Part shown: one piece after another, positions 398 through 20,630 of the stretch
How positions within the stretch are numbered: position 1 is the stretch's first letter
Layout of the letters: every line of letters starts with the position of its first letter
NCBI GenBank assembly: GCA_016931955.1
Contig: JAFGDV010000037.1
Coordinates: 1-34,585, forward strand
Source: Candidatus Altarchaeota archaeon
GTDB taxonomy: Archaea > Altiarchaeota > Altiarchaeia > IMC4 > QMZM01
Length of the DNA stretch: 34,585 bases
Reading direction: 5' to 3'
Made by a program: the position numbers and the translations under genes
The notes under the pieces: generated by a model
Databases searched by the model: none
Told to the model about the DNA's origin: nothing
The model's input: only the letters and a program-made list of their open reading frames with translations

Positions 398-3300
398 ATG
401 AAAAATAAAGGTTACGCTATCATGATTGATGCGTTGGTCGCGGTTGTTTTTTTGTTGATTATGGTAACCGCCGTCTTCACTGTTGAGCTGTCTAAGACGT
501 CTAAGACCGAAGTAATGTCTTTTAAGGAGCTTCATTATGTCTCTGAGGATGTTCTTGATGTCTTGAACAAGAACGGCGTATTGGATGAGATTGCTACGTT
601 GTGGGCGGCCAACTCGACGCCTGGCTCTGAGGAGATGGAGAATGCGTCGATGATAGCTAAAGACTACTTGGAGAAGACGCTTCCTCCACATGTTGGCTAT
701 AGGTTGATTATTGAGGAGGGTTTGAATTCTGTTGTGGTCAACAGCTCTGATGAGTCCCGTATTTCATGGAATGATTCCTCTACTTCTACTCATTCTACAA
801 GGATCTTGGTCGGCTTTGGGAGTGGTCTGCCGACTTTCGCTCATATCTCGTCCGCTTCTTTGGATTCGTTGACGAGTAAGTCTGGCTCGGATTATGCCTA
901 CTTTGGCGGCTTCGTCGGTCAGGGTAATATCTCCCGCTTCATTGACCTGCCCTCTGACGCTAACATAACGAGGGTGTATTTGGAGCTTAACCCTGGGGAA
1001 GACTTTAAGCTGTACATAAATAACATCCAGTGCCCTGGGCCGGGGCCTGGGGGGATCTTTGACGGCATGGGCTTGGATCTGAGCGCCAGCAAATGGGATC
1101 TGACTTCTTGTAAGAACCTGTTTTCTGCTGGTCGGAATTGGGTTAGCATCAACTTCACCTCCACTAATGAGTATGATTTCGTCGGCGGCGGCTTTCTTAA
1201 GGTGGATTATATTACTGGTGAATGGGATAGGATTCCTGACTTCACCACCTACTGGTTTCCCGGCATCAAGGGTTTGATCAATGTCTACTCTGGATTCTAT
1301 GTCCCTGGGAACCTGAATGATATTGAGGTCTACCTGCACTACTTCCATGATCTGCCTGACGTCAACACATATTTCACCATCGCCGATAAAACAATCTACG
1401 AATCTGATACATTGGGTGAAGTGAACGTTACACTCGATTGGCTTTACTTATCTAACAAATTTGGCGGTCCTGGGCTGCTCGTGTCTGCTCTCAGTAATAA
1501 GACGGTGCCTTTGAAGTGGGGCACTGACGAATTCGCCGTGATGGCCTCAGGTAAAGGAACAGCCGACGCAGTACTGATCACCGACGTGTCGGGGAGCATG
1601 TTTGCTTATGCCTGGAGTTGCGACGTTATCGCTTCATCGTCATGTGATTGTAGCCAGGCTAGTAATGGGAAATATTGTTTTGCTCCTTGCTGTAGGAAAA
1701 GAATCAACGTTGCTATGGATGTTGATAAGGAATTCGTCGAGCAGATACTGAATACGTCTGGGACCAGCGTGGGTCTGGTTTCGTATAACGACAAAGTGAG
1801 GTCTTCGCATTCGTTAAGCATAGACAAAGTATCGTTGTTTACTCAGATAGATGGTTATGATGATTTCCCAGATAGGGCCACATGTATTTCTTGTGGGATA
1901 AATCAGGCAACGGCTATTCTAAAGCCCGTGACGGTGGTTTCTTATAATTTTGTCTCTGAGGGGAGTGTTTGGCGTTATTCTGTTGATTACCCGATTGGTG
2001 AGCCTCCGCTTGATGCTGAAGGGGATCCTTGGACGAATATCACTTATAATGATTCAGACTGGAGTGAAGGCGATGCGATTCTTGGTTTTGAAAGCATCCC
2101 TTATGCTCCAAACGTCGACACTGATATAGGAAATAACTTGAATGTTCTCCGCCCTAATCTCTGGGATATAGCTGCTGACCTGCCTCAGCCAGTTGACTTC
2201 ACTTCTGGATTGAATTCCTCAGGCAACACCTTCGGCCCGGATGCGGGAGACGACGGCTGGGACAATGAGACGGGAGTATATGGTGGCACGGGGACGAATG
2301 TTATCTTTACTAGTAATCAGTATCTAAGGGTAGACGCTTATGGGCGTACTGGAGGTGTTGGAAGAGCTGCTAGCGGAGCCTATGGAGTCCAGTTCAACAT
2401 AACTCAGGCCATGCTTGATACTCTCCAAGGCGGCGGAACTGCAGAGTTTTCCTTCAGGTGGCGCGCTGACCAGGCAGGGCTTTCAGGAGGTGAATGGTAC
2501 ACCATACATGCTAGATTTGGTAATAGTAGCGTTATGAACGATTTTATCTTGTATGGTCCAGGTAATGGAGATAATCTGGCTTGGACTACTTGGAGCGTTG
2601 ATGTTGGAAACCACATACAGGGTGTGGGATCGTATTATCTGGATTTTGGCGTCTATATAACCAGTTGTGGTAATAATTTAGACCATGTAGCGGTCGACTT
2701 CGACGACGTCGACTTGGTTATAACGAATGAGACTGGGAACTATTTCTTCCGCAAGGAGTTTAATGTGAGTAATGCGAAAAAGATCGTCAAGGCGAAACTG
2801 CATGTGCTCTCAGATGACCGAGCAGATGTGTACCTGAATGGCAGGCTCATAGACAGCGACTCGACAGAACATAATGCTGTATACTGGAACAGGGGCCCCA
2901 TAGAGGTTAATAAGACATATTTCGTCACAGGGAACAACGTGTTAGCGGTTAAACTATACAACAACGACCCAATTGCTGCGAAATTCGACCTAAAACTCAA
3001 CTACACAAACGACACAAAGAAAAAAGCCATGCTCGTGATGAGCGATGGAATAGCTAATACCCTACTTGACGGAACACGGATTTTGGTTGAGGGTTGTGAT
3101 AAACCTGCTTCAGTGGAAGCAGTAAACAAGGCATGCGAAGCCCGACAATACGGCATTGACGTCTATTCGGTAGCATTCGGATCCGGCGCGGATCCGTGCA
3201 CACTGAAGAAGATAGCGTGCTGGAATTGCAGCGCATGTGTCCCGACAGCCAACCCGAATAATCCTAACTGCTGGCTTTCAGGTGAAAGCTATACTACTTG

Positions 3301-4183
3301 TTCTCGTTTTTACAGTAGTAATGATGCGGATGAGCTTAAGAAGATCTATGGAGAGATCGCTAACAAGATAGCGAATGCCACCATTGAGTTGCAGATGATC
3401 AAAATAACCTTCGGCGAAGTCTCATTGGAGAACATACTCTACCCGGACTCGTACATAAAATACAGGGTAGGGGTTCCGCCGATGCTGAAGCCAGGAGAGA
3501 CATTGATCAACCTGGAAAGCACGAGATTCGGTAACACGATAAGCACTGGATCATTCACTGTGCCCGCCAAGACAAGGCCGATAGAGGCGAAGGTCACATC
3601 ATATTCAGGACCCTATTGGACCAAAAGCCTGAGGATCAATAGTTCAAGTACGTCAGGCTGGCATGAGGTCTACAACCTGACAGATGAATACGGCAACGAC
3701 TACATAACATTAGGCGACCCCTACATGATAAACATCCCAGCAAGCGACGTAGGAGTTGGAGACAACTTAGTGGAGATAAAAACAGGCGCCAACAGCAGCC
3801 ATGACGCCGGAGGCTCAGTAGATGACAAAGTTCTCTACTCCATAGCCATGAATACCTACACGGGCGTCGGAGAACCGAAGCCAAGCTCAGTCGGCTGCAA
3901 CTGGACGGTGGAGTTCTTCGACGGAACAAATGCTACCCTGATGGCCCCCTACAACTACAATGGACTGAAAAGATGCAACTACACCAGCCACAACATCTCC
4001 TACGACAAAACAAGCTCCGTGGATGATGCAGTTTATCGGCTGTTCACCCAACTGGATGAAGACGGCGACCATATGTTAGACGTGAAATTCGACCCAAACA
4101 GTGTCATAGTAGACACGAGAACCATTGGGGGCATAAGGTCTCTGTGGGGTCCTATACGGGTTAAACTGGAGCTATGGACCTAA
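398..4183 (+). CDS. VWA (MIDAS) domain surface protein with pilin-like N-terminus, paralog A1
   Basis: N-terminus MKNKGYAIMIDALVAVVFLLIMVTAVFTVE = short basic leader plus hydrophobic helix. MIDAS elements DVSGS, T (RATCISC) and D (VMSDG). Many NxS/T sequons and Cys. Paralog of 6056-8776. Confidence 0.85.
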   Translation: MKNKGYAIMIDALVAVVFLLIMVTAVFTVELSKTSKTEVMSFKELHYVSEDVLDVLNKNGVLDEIATLWAANSTPGSEEMENASMIAKDYLEKTLPPHVGYRLIIEEGLNSVVVNSSDESRISWNDSSTSTHSTRILVGFGSGLPTFAHISSASLDSLTSKSGSDYAYFGGFVGQGNISRFIDLPSDANITRVYLELNPGEDFKLYINNIQCPGPGPGGIFDGMGLDLSASKWDLTSCKNLFSAGRNWVSINFTSTNEYDFVGGGFLKVDYITGEWDRIPDFTTYWFPGIKGLINVYSGFYVPGNLNDIEVYLHYFHDLPDVNTYFTIADKTIYESDTLGEVNVTLDWLYLSNKFGGPGLLVSALSNKTVPLKWGTDEFAVMASGKGTADAVLITDVSGSMFAYAWSCDVIASSSCDCSQASNGKYCFAPCCRKRINVAMDVDKEFVEQILNTSGTSVGLVSYNDKVRSSHSLSIDKVSLFTQIDGYDDFPDRATCISCGINQATAILKPVTVVSYNFVSEGSVWRYSVDYPIGEPPLDAEGDPWTNITYNDSDWSEGDAILGFESIPYAPNVDTDIGNNLNVLRPNLWDIAADLPQPVDFTSGLNSSGNTFGPDAGDDGWDNETGVYGGTGTNVIFTSNQYLRVDAYGRTGGVGRAASGAYGVQFNITQAMLDTLQGGGTAEFSFRWRADQAGLSGGEWYTIHARFGNSSVMNDFILYGPGNGDNLAWTTWSVDVGNHIQGVGSYYLDFGVYITSCGNNLDHVAVDFDDVDLVITNETGNYFFRKEFNVSNAKKIVKAKLHVLSDDRADVYLNGRLIDSDSTEHNAVYWNRGPIEVNKTYFVTGNNVLAVKLYNNDPIAAKFDLKLNYTNDTKKKAMLVMSDGIANTLLDGTRILVEGCDKPASVEAVNKACEARQYGIDVYSVAFGSGADPCTLKKIACWNCSACVPTANPNNPNCWLSGESYTTCSRFYSSNDADELKKIYGEIANKIANATIELQMIKITFGEVSLENILYPDSYIKYRVGVPPMLKPGETLINLESTRFGNTISTGSFTVPAKTRPIEAKVTSYSGPYWTKSLRINSSSTSGWHEVYNLTDEYGNDYITLGDPYMINIPASDVGVGDNLVEIKTGANSSHDAGGSVDDKVLYSIAMNTYTGVGEPKPSSVGCNWTVEFFDGTNATLMAPYNYNGLKRCNYTSHNISYDKTSSVDDAVYRLFTQLDEDGDHMLDVKFDPNSVIVDTRTIGGIRSLWGPIRVKLELWT

Positions 4184-4185
4184 GA

Positions 4186-6045
4186 ATGATACGAATAAAA
4201 AACAGGAGCGGGTATCTGTTCACGATATCGACGATAATCCTGATAATACCACTAGTGTATCTTATCTCCTATTATGGCGGCGTTCAAGAAACCCAGTTAG
4301 ACGATACCTTGGGCAGGATAAGATGTGATGAACTCCACTACTACGTCGAAGATGTTAAAAGGGATATGGGGCGTGCAGTGGAGATATTCGGTAGGAGGGC
4401 GGCAAGTTACGCAATAGACAACGTCGTCAACTCATTTGAGGGTCTTGAGGATTACAAGTTTAATTGCACATCCCGGTGCGGAGTCGACTGCAGTGAGTTC
4501 TCCTTCGAAACAAACGGTTCAGAGGCCGCGATAGCCGAACTGATACTCTGCGGAACACTCCACGGCAGAAATGTGTCTGCCATGGTCAACCACACCCTCC
4601 CCCTCTGGATAGAAAAGATGAGGGAAGAAGGGGCGCGGATGAACTTCGAAGTCGATATCTCAGCTAAAGAGATCCACATAATCCCAATAGATGCCTGGAA
4701 TTTCGCGGTCATGGTAGACAACAAAGTAAGCGTCAGAGACAGAAAAGGACTATGCTATTACACGGAAAACATAATCACAGTCCACTCCAACTCCTCGATC
4801 ATAGGCCTACCAGACCCACAATACGTCCTAAATACGAAAGGAAACAGAAGACCAATACAAAACTGCACAAAATCCTCTTTTGGAGTTTTAGAGAATCTAG
4901 TAGGCTCTGCATCTGCGAGCGGTGAGGGAAGCGCTTCAGGTACTACATTCATCTACAGCAGCAATATAGGCAATGTTGCCCAATTGATAAACTACTGTAA
5001 TACTAAGGACCCTGATGAATTAAGCCAAGAAATTTTTGTTATGGATATTGCAGGTGGAATAGTCTGCAACAGCCCTTTATGGCGGGCCTGTTTTAACGCA
5101 ACCTCTCCAAGACACTTTGCAGCTGTGATAGACTATGGTCCAGCAAACACATGTGATATGTGTCCTGGGATGGTACCTCGTATCTGTGATACGGGCAGTC
5201 TTAATCTGCCTAATGGGGATTGTATTATGATAATAAGCAATGATACGTGTGTTCCTCCGATTCATGCGGTTGTTATGGGTCTGGATTTTGATTCACTCAA
5301 CACGTCCTGTTATTATGTCAGCGACGTCAGCGGAAACTATGATGGGGATTGTGGGTTTGATACCCCCAATGGGGGGTCGTTCTTCGACCGCCTTGACGGG
5401 AACATGAATCTCTCAGAGAAATACGTGAACCAATCCCTTAAGTATTTTAACAACCCGCTCATCGGCATGGAATCCTTCGTAAGCCTGCACGATCTGAGTA
5501 GTCTAAAGGGGGGAGGACATGACGTTAAAGTGAACTTCAGCAGCACGTGGGTGGACTACCTCTACTGGCAGGACGTTGGAGGATGCGGGGTCATGGCCTT
5601 CTGCGGCGAAGAAGAGGAGAAATTCAAACTAGACTGTGCCCACGCACACGGCTACCGCATAGACACAAGCTGTGAAAGCGTCACCGGTTGCCCCCGATGC
5701 CCTGTGACTGCAGCTTTGATACGATGCGGTATGGAAAATCCGCCTGGCTCCGGAAACTATGATGTAAAATTCACTCTTCAGATTACTGATGTGTGGGCTA
5801 CTTCAATGGATCTATTAGAAAATCCTGTGATGGGATTAGAGATAAATGGCAATCCTTCATCTTTTACTATGGATAAAGTAGTTGGTGAAACAGGTAAATA
5901 CGAGCACATAGAGACAGGTCTTGCAGGGAATGATAGAGTAAAAGGTAATGTAACTATAAGGGAGATAATCTGTCCTTTGGTTGAAAACTCAACAGATAAT
6001 AGTCGGATAACACAGCCGGGTTTCAATCACCCATCGTGTCCATAG
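4186..6045 (+). CDS. Cys-rich secreted/pilin-like partner protein, paralog B1
   Basis: MIRIKNRSGYLFTISTIILIIPLVYLISYY N-terminal helix; colinear similarity to 8778-10730 (RCDELHYYVEDVKRDM, FFDRLDGN, WVDYLYWQ). The 4174 start in the ORF track overlaps A1; the ATG at 4186 follows the A1 stop. Confidence 0.8.
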   Translation: MIRIKNRSGYLFTISTIILIIPLVYLISYYGGVQETQLDDTLGRIRCDELHYYVEDVKRDMGRAVEIFGRRAASYAIDNVVNSFEGLEDYKFNCTSRCGVDCSEFSFETNGSEAAIAELILCGTLHGRNVSAMVNHTLPLWIEKMREEGARMNFEVDISAKEIHIIPIDAWNFAVMVDNKVSVRDRKGLCYYTENIITVHSNSSIIGLPDPQYVLNTKGNRRPIQNCTKSSFGVLENLVGSASASGEGSASGTTFIYSSNIGNVAQLINYCNTKDPDELSQEIFVMDIAGGIVCNSPLWRACFNATSPRHFAAVIDYGPANTCDMCPGMVPRICDTGSLNLPNGDCIMIISNDTCVPPIHAVVMGLDFDSLNTSCYYVSDVSGNYDGDCGFDTPNGGSFFDRLDGNMNLSEKYVNQSLKYFNNPLIGMESFVSLHDLSSLKGGGHDVKVNFSSTWVDYLYWQDVGGCGVMAFCGEEEEKFKLDCAHAHGYRIDTSCESVTGCPRCPVTAALIRCGMENPPGSGNYDVKFTLQITDVWATSMDLLENPVMGLEINGNPSSFTMDKVVGETGKYEHIETGLAGNDRVKGNVTIREIICPLVENSTDNSRITQPGFNHPSCP

Positions 6046-6055
6046 AAGACAAAGA

Positions 6056-8776
6056 ATGGAAAACCGTGGTTACGCTATTTTGTTGGATTCGCTGATGGCG
6101 TTGATCTTGATACTGATTGTGGCGTCGACGGTGATAACCATAGAGCATTCTAGGACCTCACGGACAGAATCGATGGAGTACACGAAACTGCACTACATGT
6201 CAGAGGATGCATTGGATGTGTTGAACAAGAACGGCATATTGGATGAGATAGCTACATTGTGGGCGGCTAATTCGACGCCTGGCTCAGAAGAGATGCAGAA
6301 CGCGTCAAATATATCCTCTTACTACCTAGAAAAAATCCTGCCACCCAATGCAGGCTACGCCCTCCTAATAGAAGGGGACGAGATAACCAACTCCAGCGGA
6401 GACCCTCAGAGAATAGTGGAACAAAAAACTTCATCGAAGACCAACTCAGTAAGGCTCCTAGTAGGATACGCCAGCGGACTCCCCACCCGCGGCCTAGTAG
6501 CGAGGGCGGCACTATCCAACATAAAAGAAAAAACGACCTCCAGCTTCCTATACTTTGGCGGATTCGTCGGACAAGGAAACATCTCACAGACGATGACGCT
6601 ACCAGAGAACATAACCATACAGGAAGCCTACATGGAACTCAATGTGGGAGACGGCTTCGACTTATACATAAACGGCAACTTCTGCAGAAACCTTCCAGCT
6701 CCAGGAGCAGTGGGTATGTCAGCTAACATAAAAGAAGACATAACAGCATGCAACGGCCTCATCGATCAAAGAGGGGAAAGCAGTCCAAACCTGTTCGAGA
6801 TAAGATTCACCGGAGACAACATAAGCAGGCAATATATTGGCGGAGGATTCATAGAAGTCAGATACAATACCTCAGAGATGGACACATCCCCTGAAACAGG
6901 ACATATGAGGTTCTATTTCCCCCAGATTGAGGGCATAATAAACTATTACTCATCGTTCTATGTTCCCGGCTGGGTTGATTCGATGACTTCAAACATAAGC
7001 TTCAAGAACAACTACACAACGTTCATGTATATAGGCGATAAACTGGTATTCAGCGTTAATGGAAGCAGCACAGCACAAACTGTTGAGAACTCATCCATTG
7101 AACTGTTGAATCTGCTTGGAGCGTCGGCGGTAAGCGAAAAAACCGTTCCCATAAGGATCGGCACAGGAGACCTCTACTATAGTGTGACAAGAGCATTAGG
7201 TGATGCAGACGTCATACTGATAACGGATCTATCTGGGAGCATGAGGTGGAGAATAGGCTACAATGACTCAACACAGGGCGTGCAGAGGAACTGCGACGAT
7301 CTGCAACTGTACGACAACGACACCAGACGGGTGAGCCTCGCTAAATGCTTGGACAAGGACTTCATTAATGCGATAATGAACACATCAGGGAATAGGGTGG
7401 GTTTGGTCGGCTTCTCAACCAACGTGGATAATTCCCATAACCTAAGCGACAATGAGAGCTCATTGATAGATCACATAAACAATTACTCTGACCTGCCCGT
7501 TGGAGGGACCTGCATATGTTGCGCGATAAACCAAGCAATAGAGCTGCTGCAGAACTCAACACCAACGCGTAGAAAATACATCATCGTTATGACGGATGGA
7601 GTTACAGGATACCATTGCGGCGGATGTTCTCTCACTGCTCCCTGCAACTGCGGCGGAGTCTGCAGCAATACCGTGGGAACGTATGAGTGCGATGGAAACC
7701 CAAGCGACTGTGATGGGACACAATGCGATACAGCCATAAACGATAGCATATGCAGTTCAAAGCGCGCACACGACGTCATGAATGCCACCGTCCATTCCAT
7801 AGGCTTTGGTCCGATAGCCACCGACTGCTCCAACGCAAACAAAACCCTCCTAAGAATAGCGGAGTGTGGTAATGGCTCCTATTATGGGAGTGAGAACGCG
7901 AGCGAGCTCGCTGAAATATATGCCAGCATTGCAGGTTATATCATAAACGCAAGCTACTATTCCCAGACAATAGCCCTCACAGGCACTGGGACAGAAAACC
8001 TGACAGGCTCAATCCTCTATGGATACCCTCAATCTTATCTGGACTTCACCTACACGGCGCCTAATGCTTCCAGGTATGGGCTGATATCGCTCACACAGAA
8101 ATCCGACAGATTCAATGATCCAATAAACTGCGTCGGCCACATCACGATACCAGAGAACGTGAACGTGTCGGAGATGAAGGTGACATCCTACTCAGCCGAG
8201 TTCTGGACAGACTACTTGAGGATAGATAACAGCCTGATCTCGCAGGAGGTCTACAAGCTATGGGAGCAGTATCCAGGGACTCCCTACCCCCTGCTCGGAG
8301 ACCCCTACGTGGTGAACGTACCTAACTCGGAGGTGGTCGTCAAAGCTGGTGTCAACGATCTGACTATCGGAACAGGAAACAGTGAAACGGAGCGCACAAA
8401 CTGCTCCATAGACGACAGGGCGATATATACCCTCTGGATAAGGTCCCTGGTAGGCTACGGCGACATCTACCCCTCCAGTGAAGGCTGCGTATGGGACATA
8501 GAATTCGAGGATGGGAGCTTAATAGATGACCTGCAGATCCCGGCAGGATACGTTGGAAGCAAAAACTGCAGCTATACTTCCTCCCTCATCGGAGGATACG
8601 AGAACGACTCCATAAATGATGCCGTCTATAGGCTGCTCTCCGGACTAGACTTAGATGATGATGGGATGGTTGACATACTCATAGACCCCTCCCTGATAGA
8701 GTTCAAGACGATGAGCACTGGAGGCGTCAGGTCCCTGTGGGGTCCGGTTGCAGTCAAACTTGTGGTCTGGATGTAA
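6056..8776 (+). CDS. VWA (MIDAS) domain surface protein with pilin-like N-terminus, paralog A2
   Basis: MENRGYAILLDSLMALILILIVASTVITIE; MIDAS DLSGS, T (GGTCICC), D (VMTDG); shared block EDALDVLNKNGILDEIATLWAANSTPGSEEM with A1. Confidence 0.85.
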   Translation: MENRGYAILLDSLMALILILIVASTVITIEHSRTSRTESMEYTKLHYMSEDALDVLNKNGILDEIATLWAANSTPGSEEMQNASNISSYYLEKILPPNAGYALLIEGDEITNSSGDPQRIVEQKTSSKTNSVRLLVGYASGLPTRGLVARAALSNIKEKTTSSFLYFGGFVGQGNISQTMTLPENITIQEAYMELNVGDGFDLYINGNFCRNLPAPGAVGMSANIKEDITACNGLIDQRGESSPNLFEIRFTGDNISRQYIGGGFIEVRYNTSEMDTSPETGHMRFYFPQIEGIINYYSSFYVPGWVDSMTSNISFKNNYTTFMYIGDKLVFSVNGSSTAQTVENSSIELLNLLGASAVSEKTVPIRIGTGDLYYSVTRALGDADVILITDLSGSMRWRIGYNDSTQGVQRNCDDLQLYDNDTRRVSLAKCLDKDFINAIMNTSGNRVGLVGFSTNVDNSHNLSDNESSLIDHINNYSDLPVGGTCICCAINQAIELLQNSTPTRRKYIIVMTDGVTGYHCGGCSLTAPCNCGGVCSNTVGTYECDGNPSDCDGTQCDTAINDSICSSKRAHDVMNATVHSIGFGPIATDCSNANKTLLRIAECGNGSYYGSENASELAEIYASIAGYIINASYYSQTIALTGTGTENLTGSILYGYPQSYLDFTYTAPNASRYGLISLTQKSDRFNDPINCVGHITIPENVNVSEMKVTSYSAEFWTDYLRIDNSLISQEVYKLWEQYPGTPYPLLGDPYVVNVPNSEVVVKAGVNDLTIGTGNSETERTNCSIDDRAIYTLWIRSLVGYGDIYPSSEGCVWDIEFEDGSLIDDLQIPAGYVGSKNCSYTSSLIGGYENDSINDAVYRLLSGLDLDDDGMVDILIDPSLIEFKTMSTGGVRSLWGPVAVKLVVWM

Positions 8777-8777
8777 G

Positions 8778-10730
8778 ATGAAAATCTCAAAGAACAAGAG
8801 AGGGTTTTTGTTGACGATAGCTACAATACTGTTGATTATTCCCCTGATACTGTTGATCTCCTATTACACTGGGATATCCGAGACAGGCAGCCAGGATGTT
8901 ATGGGCAAGATGAGATGTGATGAACTGCACTACTTCGTGGAAGACGTTAAAAGAGACATGCAGAGGTCTGTAACGATCTTCGGCAGAAGATCGGCAATAT
9001 ACGCCCTAGACCATCTAGTGGAAACTGGGCAGCCCTTTGAGGACTATGAATTCACATGCACCCCACAATGTGGAGTGGATTGCGGTGAATTCTTTTTCGA
9101 TGACCTGGGTTCAGAAGCAGCCATTGCCGAACTCACTATGTGCGGAACCCTTTATGGAGCGAATGTCACATACATGGTGAACCACACCATACCTGAGTGG
9201 ATCAGGAACATCGAATCCTATGCCGAAAAGATGCACTTCATATTGGATTTAAATGTTTCAGAGATCAAAGTGGTTCCAATGGATGCATGGGATTTTGCGC
9301 TCATAGTGGACTACAAGATCAGAGTACAAGATGAGGAGGGGATGTGCTATTATACTGAAAACATCATACAGGTGATATCCAACTCATCAATAATAGGCCT
9401 GGAAGACCCATTGTATGTGTTGCAGACAGATGGTCACATCTTGAAATACATAGTGAACTGCACAGTGGATCTGGACGTTAAGGCGACGGCGGGCTGCAGC
9501 AAAAGCAGTCTGGGGAATGGGGTGGCCACCGGCAGAATCGTCTACTACTCAGAGATTGACGGAGTAGCTAACTACTGTGATATCACGTCAGACATCAACG
9601 ACATAATACTCGTCATGGACAAGGCGATAGGCAGCTGCAATCAGTTTGGAGACGAATGCTGGAACATAAGCGCTGTAAACCATTTCGCGGGCGTGATAGA
9701 CTACGGCCCAAACAACATAAACAGCATAGTAAACAAATGCGACGTCAGCATCCCATGGGTATTGGATACAGGTAAATTAGATGACGGCGAAACTGGATTC
9801 GGGGGTGGATGGGCCAGGAACCCCGCCTGCGACGGAGGCGACATAAGCCGCGACGGCTGCGTAGTCATATACAATGACCCAATATGCGGGATATACGAGG
9901 TCAGGATAGGCTACGACAGCAATACAACAAACACCACCTGCTACTACGTGAGCGACATAGAGGAATACTACAACACAAAATGCGCAGTTAACTACTCAAA
10001 CGGGCCCTCCTTCTTCGACCGCCTTGACGGGAACCTGAATCTCTCAGAGAAATACGTGAGCCAGTCCATGGAATACTTCAACACGACCCTCATCGGGATA
10101 GAGACCCTCGTACAGCTCTATGAACTGGATTCATATCATTCGATTTATCCCAGCATACCGGTTTATGCAAATGCCACATGGGTTGACTACCTCTACTGGC
10201 AGGGCGTTGTAGGATGCGGGGTTATAAGCTCATGCGAGGTCGGCAAATTCAGATTAAACCTGGACTGTGCGCATTCATTCAAACATGGTGTAGGCACAGA
10301 CTGCGCATTTGTCTCAGAGTGTTACTACTGTGGAGACGGATCCTGCGACATAGGGGAGACATGCGTTAGCTGCCCAGCCGACTGCAGCTGCCCATCCTGT
10401 CCGACACAGGCAAGCCTGGAGATCTGCTCGACAGACATAGGCTCCAATAAATACGATGTCACCTTCACGTTGACTGTGACAAATGCGTCAGGAGGGTTCG
10501 ACCTCAGCGCCCTGCCAGAGATAAACGTCACCATAGAGGGTATCATCGCTGACCACACCATGAATCAGATAGGTGTTGGAACATACGAGTACACAGAGGC
10601 GGGCGTCGGCAAAAATGACCAAATAAAGGGTAATGTGACATTGATTCCGCCGCTTATCGGAGCCGGCTGCCCGACGCTGAGCGATGAGACACCATACGAT
10701 CAAGCAAAGTCTATCCCAGACACCTGCTGA
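8778..10730 (+). CDS. Cys-rich secreted/pilin-like partner protein, paralog B2
   Basis: Paralog of B1. Likely start is the ATG at 8778 (MKISKNKRGFLLTIATILL...), one nt after the A2 stop; the 8748 start in the ORF track would overlap A2. Confidence 0.8.
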   Translation: MKISKNKRGFLLTIATILLIIPLILLISYYTGISETGSQDVMGKMRCDELHYFVEDVKRDMQRSVTIFGRRSAIYALDHLVETGQPFEDYEFTCTPQCGVDCGEFFFDDLGSEAAIAELTMCGTLYGANVTYMVNHTIPEWIRNIESYAEKMHFILDLNVSEIKVVPMDAWDFALIVDYKIRVQDEEGMCYYTENIIQVISNSSIIGLEDPLYVLQTDGHILKYIVNCTVDLDVKATAGCSKSSLGNGVATGRIVYYSEIDGVANYCDITSDINDIILVMDKAIGSCNQFGDECWNISAVNHFAGVIDYGPNNINSIVNKCDVSIPWVLDTGKLDDGETGFGGGWARNPACDGGDISRDGCVVIYNDPICGIYEVRIGYDSNTTNTTCYYVSDIEEYYNTKCAVNYSNGPSFFDRLDGNLNLSEKYVSQSMEYFNTTLIGIETLVQLYELDSYHSIYPSIPVYANATWVDYLYWQGVVGCGVISSCEVGKFRLNLDCAHSFKHGVGTDCAFVSECYYCGDGSCDIGETCVSCPADCSCPSCPTQASLEICSTDIGSNKYDVTFTLTVTNASGGFDLSALPEINVTIEGIIADHTMNQIGVGTYEYTEAGVGKNDQIKGNVTLIPPLIGAGCPTLSDETPYDQAKSIPDTC

Positions 10731-12897: not shown

Positions 12898-14490
12898 ATG
12901 GCTGAACAGGCTAATGGGAAAGAAGAGGAGGGCGCAGGGAGTGAGTTCTCAAAGGTTAAGGAGAAGGTACTGGAGAAAAAGGAACGCCTTGTAGAGTCCT
13001 ATAATGTTAGATGTGATGAAGTCGAGGTAGAAATAAGGATAGTGATAAAGAATTTCAAGCATACCTACAAGGTCATCGTCCCAGAGGTTAGCATAGCGAC
13101 TTCGGCCTTATTGGATGATATAAAGGAGAAACTGATCGGCGCCATTGAAGTCAATCCTACAGAGATATTCGACACAAAGCTGATGGATGAGTTGAAAACC
13201 GAGCTGAAGGATGATGCTGCGGTGCTCCTCAGTGAAGAACTCCCCGACCTTGGCGAGAAGACCAAGAATCAGTTTATACTGGATCTGATGAACGACCTGC
13301 TTGGCTTAGGCAATATTGAAATCTTCCTCAACGATGACCAGATAGAGGAGATCGTCATCAACTCGGCGAAGGAGCCAGTGAGGGTATACCATAAAAAATA
13401 CGGCTGGCTTGAGTCGAACATAACGTTGAAAAGTGAGGCCCAGATATCCAATTACGCGAACATAATAGCGAGGCGCATTGGGAGGGAGATAACAACATTG
13501 AATCCATTACTGGACGCCCATCTGATGACGAAGGACAGAGCCAACGCCATACTAACCCCGATATCGACGAAAGGCAATACGGTAACAATAAGAAAATTCG
13601 CTCGAGACCCGTGGACTGCCCCGGATTTTATAAAGAATAGGACAGCAAGCTCTGAGGTTCTGGCATTGATCTGGCTTTGCATCCAATACGAGATGAACAT
13701 CCTCATCTCTGGTGGAACAGGCTCTGGGAAGACTTCTTTGCTGAACGTCTGTATGCCGTTCATGCCACCCAACCATAGGATAATATCCATCGAGGATACT
13801 CGAGAGCTGCAGCTGCCGAAGTTCCTCTACTGGTGCCCGCTGACGACGAGGCCTGCAAACCCCGAAGGCAAGGGGGAGGTTACGATGCTTGACCTGGTCG
13901 TTAACTCCCTCAGGATGAGGCCTGACCGGATTATCATGGGCGAGATCCGTAAGCAAAGGGAAGCTGAGGTCCTCTTTGAGGCGATGCATACTGGCCACTC
14001 AGTGTACGGCACACTCCATGCGGACACATGCGCTCAGACCATTACGAGACTTGTTAATCCCCCGATAAACATACCAGAGAGCATGCTTGACTCAGTGCAC
14101 CTGAACGTTGTGATGTTCAGGGATCGGAGGCTGGGTGTAAGGAGGATCTTCGAGGTGGGTGAATTCCTTGAAGAGATAGACCCTAACACGAGGAGGCTGC
14201 ACTTTAATCCCAGCATACTCTACCGATGGGATCCGAGGACAGATGATATAGTCCCAGTCGAGAAGAGCGGCATAAGACTCTATGAGAAGATAGGATCACA
14301 TACTGGCCTATCAGCTGATGAGATCAGGGCAGACATAGACCTGAAGAAGAGGATCCTTGATTGGCTGGTCGAACACAACACTCGTTCCATAGAGGAAATG
14401 GGCACAGTGATGAACAGATACTACGTAGACAGAAACACGGTAATAGATATGGTGGAAAAGAATCAGGACCCTAAGGGGCTGTTTGAGTGA
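12898..14490 (+). CDS. Type II/IV secretion system (GspE/PilT/archaeal pilus) ATPase
   Basis: Walker A ISGGTGSGKTS, Asp box IISIEDTREL, Walker B RPDRIIMGEIR, His box GHSVYGTLHAD. Confidence 0.9.
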   Translation: MAEQANGKEEEGAGSEFSKVKEKVLEKKERLVESYNVRCDEVEVEIRIVIKNFKHTYKVIVPEVSIATSALLDDIKEKLIGAIEVNPTEIFDTKLMDELKTELKDDAAVLLSEELPDLGEKTKNQFILDLMNDLLGLGNIEIFLNDDQIEEIVINSAKEPVRVYHKKYGWLESNITLKSEAQISNYANIIARRIGREITTLNPLLDAHLMTKDRANAILTPISTKGNTVTIRKFARDPWTAPDFIKNRTASSEVLALIWLCIQYEMNILISGGTGSGKTSLLNVCMPFMPPNHRIISIEDTRELQLPKFLYWCPLTTRPANPEGKGEVTMLDLVVNSLRMRPDRIIMGEIRKQREAEVLFEAMHTGHSVYGTLHADTCAQTITRLVNPPINIPESMLDSVHLNVVMFRDRRLGVRRIFEVGEFLEEIDPNTRRLHFNPSILYRWDPRTDDIVPVEKSGIRLYEKIGSHTGLSADEIRADIDLKKRILDWLVEHNTRSIEEMGTVMNRYYVDRNTVIDMVEKNQDPKGLFE

Positions 14491-19071: not shown

Positions 19072-19146
19072 GGGACCGTAGGGTAGCTTGGCTTATCCTT
19101 CCAGCTTTGGGAGCTGGTGACCCGAGTTCGAATCTCGGCGGTCCCA
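19072..19146 (+). tRNA. tRNA-Pro (anticodon TGG)
   Basis: Hand fold: acceptor GGGACCG/CGGTCCC, anticodon stem CCAGC/GCTGG with loop TTTGGGA, T-arm CGAG-TTCGAAT-CTCG, discriminator A. Confidence 0.93.
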
Positions 19147-19592
19147 CTACCACCTTTTTCTTAGAAAGAAAAACGTGGACGAAAAAGAAAGGAATCTGCC
19201 GAAGGCAGATTCTTAGGGTTGATAAGGGCATACCTGCCCTTATGTGTCGAATCTCGGCGGTCCCATAGCCCTTTTCTCTAGGAAAGAAAAGTGCTATCAT
19301 CAGCAAGATGCTAAGCATCTTGTCTGAGTTGAGGCCAACAGACCTCATCATCCCCAAAGAAACGGAAATTCGCTTCGAGAATTCTTAGGGTTGATAAGGG
19401 CATTTGATGCCCTTATTTCGGGATCTCAGCGGTCCCATTGCCTTCAGCCTTTCTTTTCCGTGAGCGCAAAATCTCCGATTTTGGCGCCCAAAACTGCTAC
19501 AGCAGTTTGACGGAAAACGTGGACGAAAAAGAAAGGAATCTGCCGAAGGCAGATTCTTAGGGTTGATAAGGGCACAAGGTGCCCTTATGTTG
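19147..19592. repeat. tRNA-Pro-adjacent array of degenerate units: conserved core TTCTTAGGGTTGATAAGGGCA-N-TGCCCTTAT x3 (172-bp spacing), two extra tRNA 3'-end copies, many hairpins
   Basis: Core 'tcttagg' at 19211, 19383 and 19555; tRNA 3'-end copies at 19247-19265 (19/19 nt) and 19418-19437 (degenerate); hairpins read directly. Confidence 0.9.
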
Positions 19593-20630
19593 TTATCTAT
19601 TTGTCTCCTCGTTGTTTGTTATCTTTTGGATGTTCAGTCCCATGTAGACTGCGCATAGGAGCCCTATTATTAGGGGCAGCAGGAAGAGGCAGAATCTGTT
19701 TATTATTGTTGCTGCGGCTGCGGTGGCTTCAAGCATCTTTGGCTGTGCTATCAGTATGTATAATGCGGTGCTTGAACTCTCCCACACGCCTAATGCCCCG
19801 GGCATGAGCGGGAGAAAAGAGATGCCTGCGACAGTAGTTTCAACGATTAAAACAGTTGAGAACTCTATGGAGACACCAAGGGCAGTGAATATGAGGTATG
19901 TTCGCAGCATTCTCAGCCCCCAGACTATTAGCGACATTATGGTTCCAAAGAACAGGATGTAGTTATCTAACATATGCAATCTGACGGCTTCGTTGAATTT
20001 TCCAGACATCTGGTCGAACTCGGGCAGCACCTCTGTTATGTGTTTTTTCAGGAAATGGATTCCTGAAAGCAGGGTGGCGATCCTTTTCATGCTCTTCAGG
20101 AAGATGTCCTTCCTCGTAACCAGTGTTATTACGACAGCGAACAGAAGCAGCAATATCATGGCAATCGTGGCGAGGAAGAGGGCGAATAGCATCGAAACAC
20201 CCTTCACATATGTGAGGTATATGGCTATTCCGCTGAGTAGGAACATTGGGACGATCTCGAGGAAAAGATCCACGAGGACGCTTGATGCTGCAGTGGTTAA
20301 TGGTAGGTTATCTGTCTTCGAGATTATGTAGGCCTTAACTGGTTCACCCCCAGCAAGACCTATTGGTGTTATGCCATTCATGAAGTATCCTACGAATGTT
20401 GCTGGCAGCAGATTGCGCATTGAGACGTTCGAGTGCCTTAGGACGAGGCGCCATTTAAATGAGGATACGATATTAGAGGTTAACTGTATTGTCAGGATTA
20501 ATAAAAGGTAACCTGGAGAGATCTTTTTTAACTCCTCCAGAAACTGGTCGAAATCAACAAGGTATAGTGTCAGAAACACCAGCAGCAAGCCGATAAGTGA
20601 GAGGAGAATTGCTTTACGTCGCATTTTCAC
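19593..20630 (-). CDS. Flippase-like/LPG-synthase TM-domain (UPF0104-type) membrane protein
   Basis: Multi-TM; NIVSSFKWRLVLR, GYFMNGITPIGLAGGEPVKAYIIS, PGALGVWESS motifs typical of the family. Confidence 0.8.
   Translation of the reverse strand: MKMRRKAILLSLIGLLLVFLTLYLVDFDQFLEELKKISPGYLLLILTIQLTSNIVSSFKWRLVLRHSNVSMRNLLPATFVGYFMNGITPIGLAGGEPVKAYIISKTDNLPLTTAASSVLVDLFLEIVPMFLLSGIAIYLTYVKGVSMLFALFLATIAMILLLLFAVVITLVTRKDIFLKSMKRIATLLSGIHFLKKHITEVLPEFDQMSGKFNEAVRLHMLDNYILFFGTIMSLIVWGLRMLRTYLIFTALGVSIEFSTVLIVETTVAGISFLPLMPGALGVWESSSTALYILIAQPKMLEATAAAATIINRFCLFLLPLIIGLLCAVYMGLNIQKITNNEETNR

Follow-up and report, generated by a model that had tools for sequence, protein, structure and literature searches.

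A hairpin-ended unit array behind an altiarchaeal tRNA-Pro gene: a candidate family of very small mobile repeats in archaea

The array behind tRNA-Pro

Immediately downstream of a tRNA-Pro gene in an altiarchaeal contig lies a row of short non-coding units with a common terminal core, two of them followed by copies of the end of the tRNA gene, and the question is whether such units are insertions of a mobile element or repeats derived from the tRNA tail itself. Both readings were offered in an earlier note on the window (the whole stretch of 34,585 nucleotides that was analysed). The general layout that it described, tRNA-Pro followed by units with a common core, was confirmed by ARAGORN, Rfam and exact matching, and comprises the following features.

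19072..19146, + strand: tRNA-Pro(TGG) gene, the putative insertion target (ARAGORN and Rfam RF00005)
19147..19243, + strand: unit 1, 97 nt; a 5' hairpin, then a GAATCTGCC-gaa-GGCAGATTC hairpin, then the terminal core
19216..19243, + strand: terminal hairpin core 1 (unit 1), GGGTTGATAAGGGCATACCTGCCCTTAT
19244..19265, + strand: target duplication 1; GTG, then the tRNA-Pro tail without mismatch over 19 nt (19247-19265)
19266..19416, + strand: unit 2, 151 nt; internal hairpin modules differ, terminal core the same
19388..19416, + strand: terminal hairpin core 2 (unit 2), GGGTTGATAAGGGCATTTGATGCCCTTAT
19417..19437, + strand: target duplication 2; the tRNA-Pro tail in degenerate form, TTCGGGATCTCAGCGGTCCCA
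19438..19588, + strand: unit 3, 151 nt; 61 identical nt in common with unit 1, strong folding (z -5.3)
19560..19588, + strand: terminal hairpin core 3 (unit 3), GGGTTGATAAGGGCACAAGGTGCCCTTAT
19589..19630, + strand: native sequence resumes after unit 3, being the 3' end of a minus-strand gene (19593-20630)

The tRNA-Pro(TGG) gene is called at 19072-19147 by ARAGORN and at 19072-19146 by Rfam RF00005 (55.7 bits), and its tail, TCGAATCTCGGCGGTCCCA, occupies 19128-19146. Only the tRNA scored above threshold in the Rfam search of the window region, and the units match no family. All three units end in one hairpin, GGGTTGATAAGGG-stem-CCCTTAT. The window has exactly three occurrences of TTAGGGTTGATAAGGGCA (19213, 19385 and 19557; chance expectation 0.03). 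The spacing of 172 and 172 bp first reported for the core is exact, the start coordinates reported with it being one base too high. A 172-bp period as the true repeat length was rejected: the units measure 97, 151 and 151 nt, and the equal spacing is a coincidence of lengths, arising because tail copy and unit together make 22 + 151 and 21 + 151 nt, where the cores measure 28 and 29 nt. Units 1 and 3 do have a flank in common, 61 identical nt (19170-19230 = 19514-19574), and the interior hairpin modules of unit 2 differ; the three unit regions fold with z scores of -5.5, -2.8 and -5.3 respectively. Also as first described, one copy of the 19-nt tail is perfect (19247-19265) and the second degenerate (19419-19437, 79% identity). 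No recognisable tRNA-Pro tail copy follows unit 3, which directly abuts native sequence.

From 19593 onward the native sequence aligns to an empty site in a genome of the same genus, G001, so that the search for such sites proposed in the earlier note found a tRNA-Pro gene without a unit. As in the window, tRNA-Pro there stands behind the same aminotransferase gene, and 46 nt after the tRNA comes the homologue of window 19593 onward. Gain in the window's own genome (G000) as against loss in G001 is something we infer, since G001 has diverged from G000 (about 66% identity) and no movement was observed.

Distribution of the hairpin family

The core is not unique to this contig. When searched for in G000 and in relatives of the window, which belong to Altiarchaeota, the full hairpin was found 13 times as an exact copy in G000 and 18 times in the relative G008, and the core occurs 15 times in G000 if up to three mismatches are allowed; the match in G001 is locus L037, with identical contig coordinates. 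Mapping against tRNA genes placed about 10 of the 13 copies in G000 just downstream of a tRNA, which by our reading are Pro (three), Glu, Gln, Gly (two), Val, Trp and Leu (by tail), and we read the remaining copies as two at contig ends and one elsewhere. Four of the 13 exact copies (contigs C10, C14, C27 and C46) are no more than about 300 nt from a contig end; the repeats therefore probably break the assembly, and the copy number in G000 is a lower bound.

An exact scan of the GTDB species genomes detected at least 109 stretches with the hairpin. Among the matches listed, most belong to Woesearchaeota, with others in Aenigmarchaeota, Pacearchaeota, other Nanoarchaeota, Altiarchaeota and Diapherotrites; Methanophagales and some bacterial bins are also present among them, and the Methanophagales matches, whose flanks are conserved between species, may be a separate matter. 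Since the hairpin was present in just 15 of a sample of 394 archaeal genomes, none of which contained the reversed control pattern, and within the Altiarchaeota phylum in 7 of 29 genomes, all 7 from a single family, its distribution is patchy. In the 27-nt cores the stem covaries, with 23 of 23 pairs and four pair types against a shuffled mean of 9.9. In the Woesearchaeota genome G067 (L028, L029, L073) the core forms part of a larger repeat element whose inverted arms are TATTTGTTTAGCT...AGCTAAACAAATA. A viral origin was considered and rejected, as IMG/VR gave only 5 matches, which we estimate to be about chance for so loose a pattern, and none had a clear flanking repeat. The literature searched held no description of these units, and the core sequence had no relevant match in paper text. 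The family is best filed as a kind of very small mobile repeat, real and patchily widespread.

Target duplications and targets

Flanking direct repeats with a score of at least 13 were present at 63 of 190 testable copies, compared to 2 in a null of reversed sequence, and in 46 of these 63 the repeat starts 0-6 nt from the 3' end of the hairpin (offset 0 in 27). About two thirds of the testable copies have no detectable duplication; these may be decayed, at contig ends, or of other origin. The duplicated piece is the target itself, whether a tRNA's own tail, 5S rRNA or the end of a protein gene. At 16 of the 29 copies linked to a tRNA, the right flank fits the tail of that tRNA better than it fits any other in the set, and in G000 a copy of a tRNA's own tail (at least 13/16) lies within 600 nt downstream for 7 of 18 tRNAs, versus 1 upstream. 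The suggestion that the units form a tRNA-tail-derived repeat family thus has no support: the tail copy is part of the target and not of the element, because its match changes with the site, from the adjacent tRNA's own tail to 5S rRNA or the end of a protein gene.

A pristine tandem is seen at L151 in G008, where tRNA-Pro is followed by a 54-nt element, GTTCGAATCTCAGCGGTCCCA and the element again; exact tandem arrays also occur at L104, L074 and L225. At L103 the target is the 3' end of 5S rRNA, which was recognised by eye. Protein genes are hit at their 3' ends at L183, L276, L272 and L019, with the gene end whole in the left copy and reduced to a remnant in the right. At L111 and L066 the order is reversed, the right copy being the intact tRNA, and at L068 the insertion is in frame within a protein gene and both duplicate copies are coding. 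As a rule one gene copy is normally intact, as selection would enforce. The 3' half of tRNA genes is often hit, and several copies lie inside tRNA T-loops.

Three further observations concern related sequences. In several archaea, reverse-orientation copies (L042, L052, L031, L071, L079 and L095) interrupt the tRNA T-loop (TTCGAA) with few duplicated bases at most; they may be non-canonical introns or pseudogenes, and no splice-type (BHB) structure was seen in the one example folded. At L171, a tRNA-Asn gene (1500-1646) has an intron holding a hairpin module, CAGCCTTTTAGGAAAAGGCTGGCGAAAAC, that is also found in intergenic units. G000 also contains a second unit type, ending in CGTGCACG...GGTGCTTCGCA or similar, which likewise duplicates its own tRNA tail (L161, L165, L166 and L172).

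With these data in hand, the sequence argues that the array behind tRNA-Pro probably arose when a very small non-autonomous mobile element inserted three times in series. What defines the element is its 3'-terminal hairpin, GGGTTGATAAGGG-stem-CCCTTAT. Of the two readings first offered, this agrees with the one that invoked a tiny non-coding element inserted serially, and it is backed by the dispersed copies, the association with tRNAs, the tRNA-specific tails and the empty site in G001.

Element geometry and the search for an enzyme

The 3' junction of the elements is precise, usually within 0-6 nt, and the 5' junction variable, with a distance from left repeat to hairpin of 0 to 553 nt and a target duplication of about 11-57 nt or more. 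Where the repeat was verified, the right flank tends to begin with G and then T and to have G or C as its fourth base, and several targets start with GTTC or GTTG, like the element's own GTTGAT; a GTTC/GTTG-like target preference is suggestive only. The part of the element 5' of the terminal hairpin may be missing altogether or consist of up to about 150 nt of additional hairpins; rarely it reaches 400-550 nt. At L125, HicA and HicB toxin-antitoxin genes lie between tRNA-Phe and the hairpin within a duplication-bounded unit, the only copy with two small genes.

The units in the window are too short to encode an integrase, and no RVT_1, Y1_Tnp or Cas1 was found in G000. Among 19 carriers, RVT_1 was present in 5, Y1_Tnp in 9 and Cas1 in 2; RVT_1 was not found in G008 either, and the hairpin was not seen near any RT or Y1 locus that was sampled. 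Reverse transcriptase, Y1 and Cas1 were rejected as resident enzymes, being absent in G000 and inconsistent across carriers. The insertion could depend on a trans-acting enzyme, on one whose gene is lacking from incomplete bins, or on some activity of the host, and it is possible that a reverse transcriptase acts in trans from outside the bins.

Alternative explanations

The first alternative is that the units belong to the REP/RAYT or IS200/IS605 type, in which a single-strand hairpin is moved by a Y1 transposase. Long target duplications, such as are present here, are not expected from IS200/IS605 transposition. The units do resemble REP/REPIN sequences with RAYT in being palindromes of 20-40 nt in many copies, some in genes and often downstream of genes; they have a conserved 5' foot, GGGTTGAT, and a Y1 protein is encoded in nearly half of the carriers (9 of 19). 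The foot differs, however, from the tetranucleotide GTAG or CGTC that a passage of PMC3733652 gives for the foot of REP palindromes. There is moreover no Y1 gene in G000 with its 13 copies or in G070 with 12 exact hairpin matches, the Y1 loci examined lack the hairpin, and the long variable duplication, T-loop preference and archaeal hosts are further differences from REP/REPIN, making this explanation distinctly unlikely.

A second possibility is that nothing has moved, and that gene ends were duplicated in tandem around functional RNA hairpins, for example signals for the processing or termination of tRNA transcripts. Strong folding and covariation would fit, as would the position of units downstream of RNA genes and the exact tandems at L104, L074 and L225. 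Against this, the hairpin occurs at unrelated loci and genes, including inside coding sequence and tRNA T-loops, most archaea lack it (15 of 394 have it), and the tail copies decay; we regard a non-mobile origin as decidedly improbable.

It is very improbable that each unit is a stripped element of SSV or pNOB8 type, integrated at a tRNA att site through an attP carrying the tRNA tail. SSV1, pNOB8 and the Caldiarchaeum tRNA-Thr element, an example of a tRNA-integrating archaeal element (described in a passage of PMC3293823), are alike in targeting tRNAs, a fragment of which then remains as a direct repeat, and tRNA-tail copies exist in the array. Those elements encode integrases and use a fixed tRNA core, whereas the present units are non-coding, mostly about 30-150 nt long, and duplicate whatever piece of the target is present. 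One terminal hairpin stands beside many different tRNAs, each with its own tail, and 5S rRNA and protein-gene ends are also targets; rather than one attP core per tRNA with a constant duplication there are many targets and many lengths, for which a fixed attP core cannot account. The label 'att-like' in the integrase sense likewise has no support, given that duplication length varies and the targets have no common fixed core.

In a CRISPR- or casposon-like scheme, Cas1 would integrate the units and the tRNA tail would serve as the repeat that is duplicated. A polar array beside a fixed sequence duplicated at each insertion might suggest this, but Cas1 integration uses a fixed ruler, duplications here range over 11-57 nt or more, and Cas1 occurs in only 2 of the 19 carriers and not in G000, so that this explanation is largely refuted and extremely improbable. 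Integron-like cassettes with the hairpin as attC site, to which the arrays and the HicAB pair between tRNA-Phe and hairpin at L125 could point, are hardly conceivable and were rejected on the partner-box test, in which RYYYAAC showed no upstream enrichment (13 of 183 versus a shuffled mean of 21.3). The sequence GTTGATA also departs from the attC core GTTRRRY, and integron insertion is not known to duplicate its target.

Two further comparisons are informative. Cyanobacterial SDRs and Rickettsia palindromic elements are non-coding sequences of tens of nucleotides, sometimes in frame or in RNA genes, and no enzyme is known to mobilise them; the present units differ in having a conserved hairpin motif across archaeal groups and a clear target duplication. 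Eukaryotic SINEs and 5'-truncated LINEs, moved by target-primed reverse transcription, also have a conserved stem-loop at the 3' end with a precise junction there, and their 5' end and the length of the target duplication vary; the values recorded here (right junction 0-6 nt, left gap 0-553 nt, duplications 11-57 nt or more) have the geometry of a SINE or target-primed retroposon. Unlike these, however, the units are prokaryotic and tens of nucleotides long, and no partner reverse transcriptase was found, RVT_1 being present in 5 of the 19 carriers and in neither G000 nor G008.

A possible mechanism and its implications

For the serial insertion of a small mobile element, a mechanism can be sketched. 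In non-LTR elements, a precise 3' end, a variable 5' end and a variable duplication are the footprint of target-primed or nick-primed insertion, and we infer a TPRT-like mechanism here because precise 3' ends, variable 5' ends and target duplications of variable length occur together. A trans-acting enzyme would recognise the terminal hairpin and nick the target at a preferred site, either the tRNA T-loop or a GTTC/GTTG-like sequence, where the 3' end of the element would be joined. A second, less specific cut downstream would then give rise to the variable duplication, and re-use of the regenerated site beside the tRNA would produce arrays in which tail copies are more decayed farther from the gene. 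Nick-primed insertion taken by itself is a serious possibility that we hold tentatively. The fuller proposal of a prokaryotic analogue of SINEs, in which RNA hairpins of tens of nucleotides would be put into gene ends of DPANN-type and altiarchaeal genomes through target-primed reverse transcription by an enzyme that a host, virus or plasmid would provide in trans, is speculative and, as a whole, unlikely.

If serial insertion is the correct reading, distant and mostly uncultured archaea would have in common a mobile family aimed at the ends of tRNA and rRNA genes, which would spare the gene through duplication of its end and whose copies would break assemblies. As several copies lie inside T-loops, the family may also contribute to the disrupted tRNA genes of archaea, and its existence would point to a yet-unfound insertion enzyme.

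A separate feature of the window is the presence of large surface-type proteins (with a weak VWA match at 398-4183) and a type II/IV secretion ATPase (PF00437) encoded at 398-10730 and 12898-14490, a combination suggesting, by sequence resemblance, a pilus or adhesin locus.
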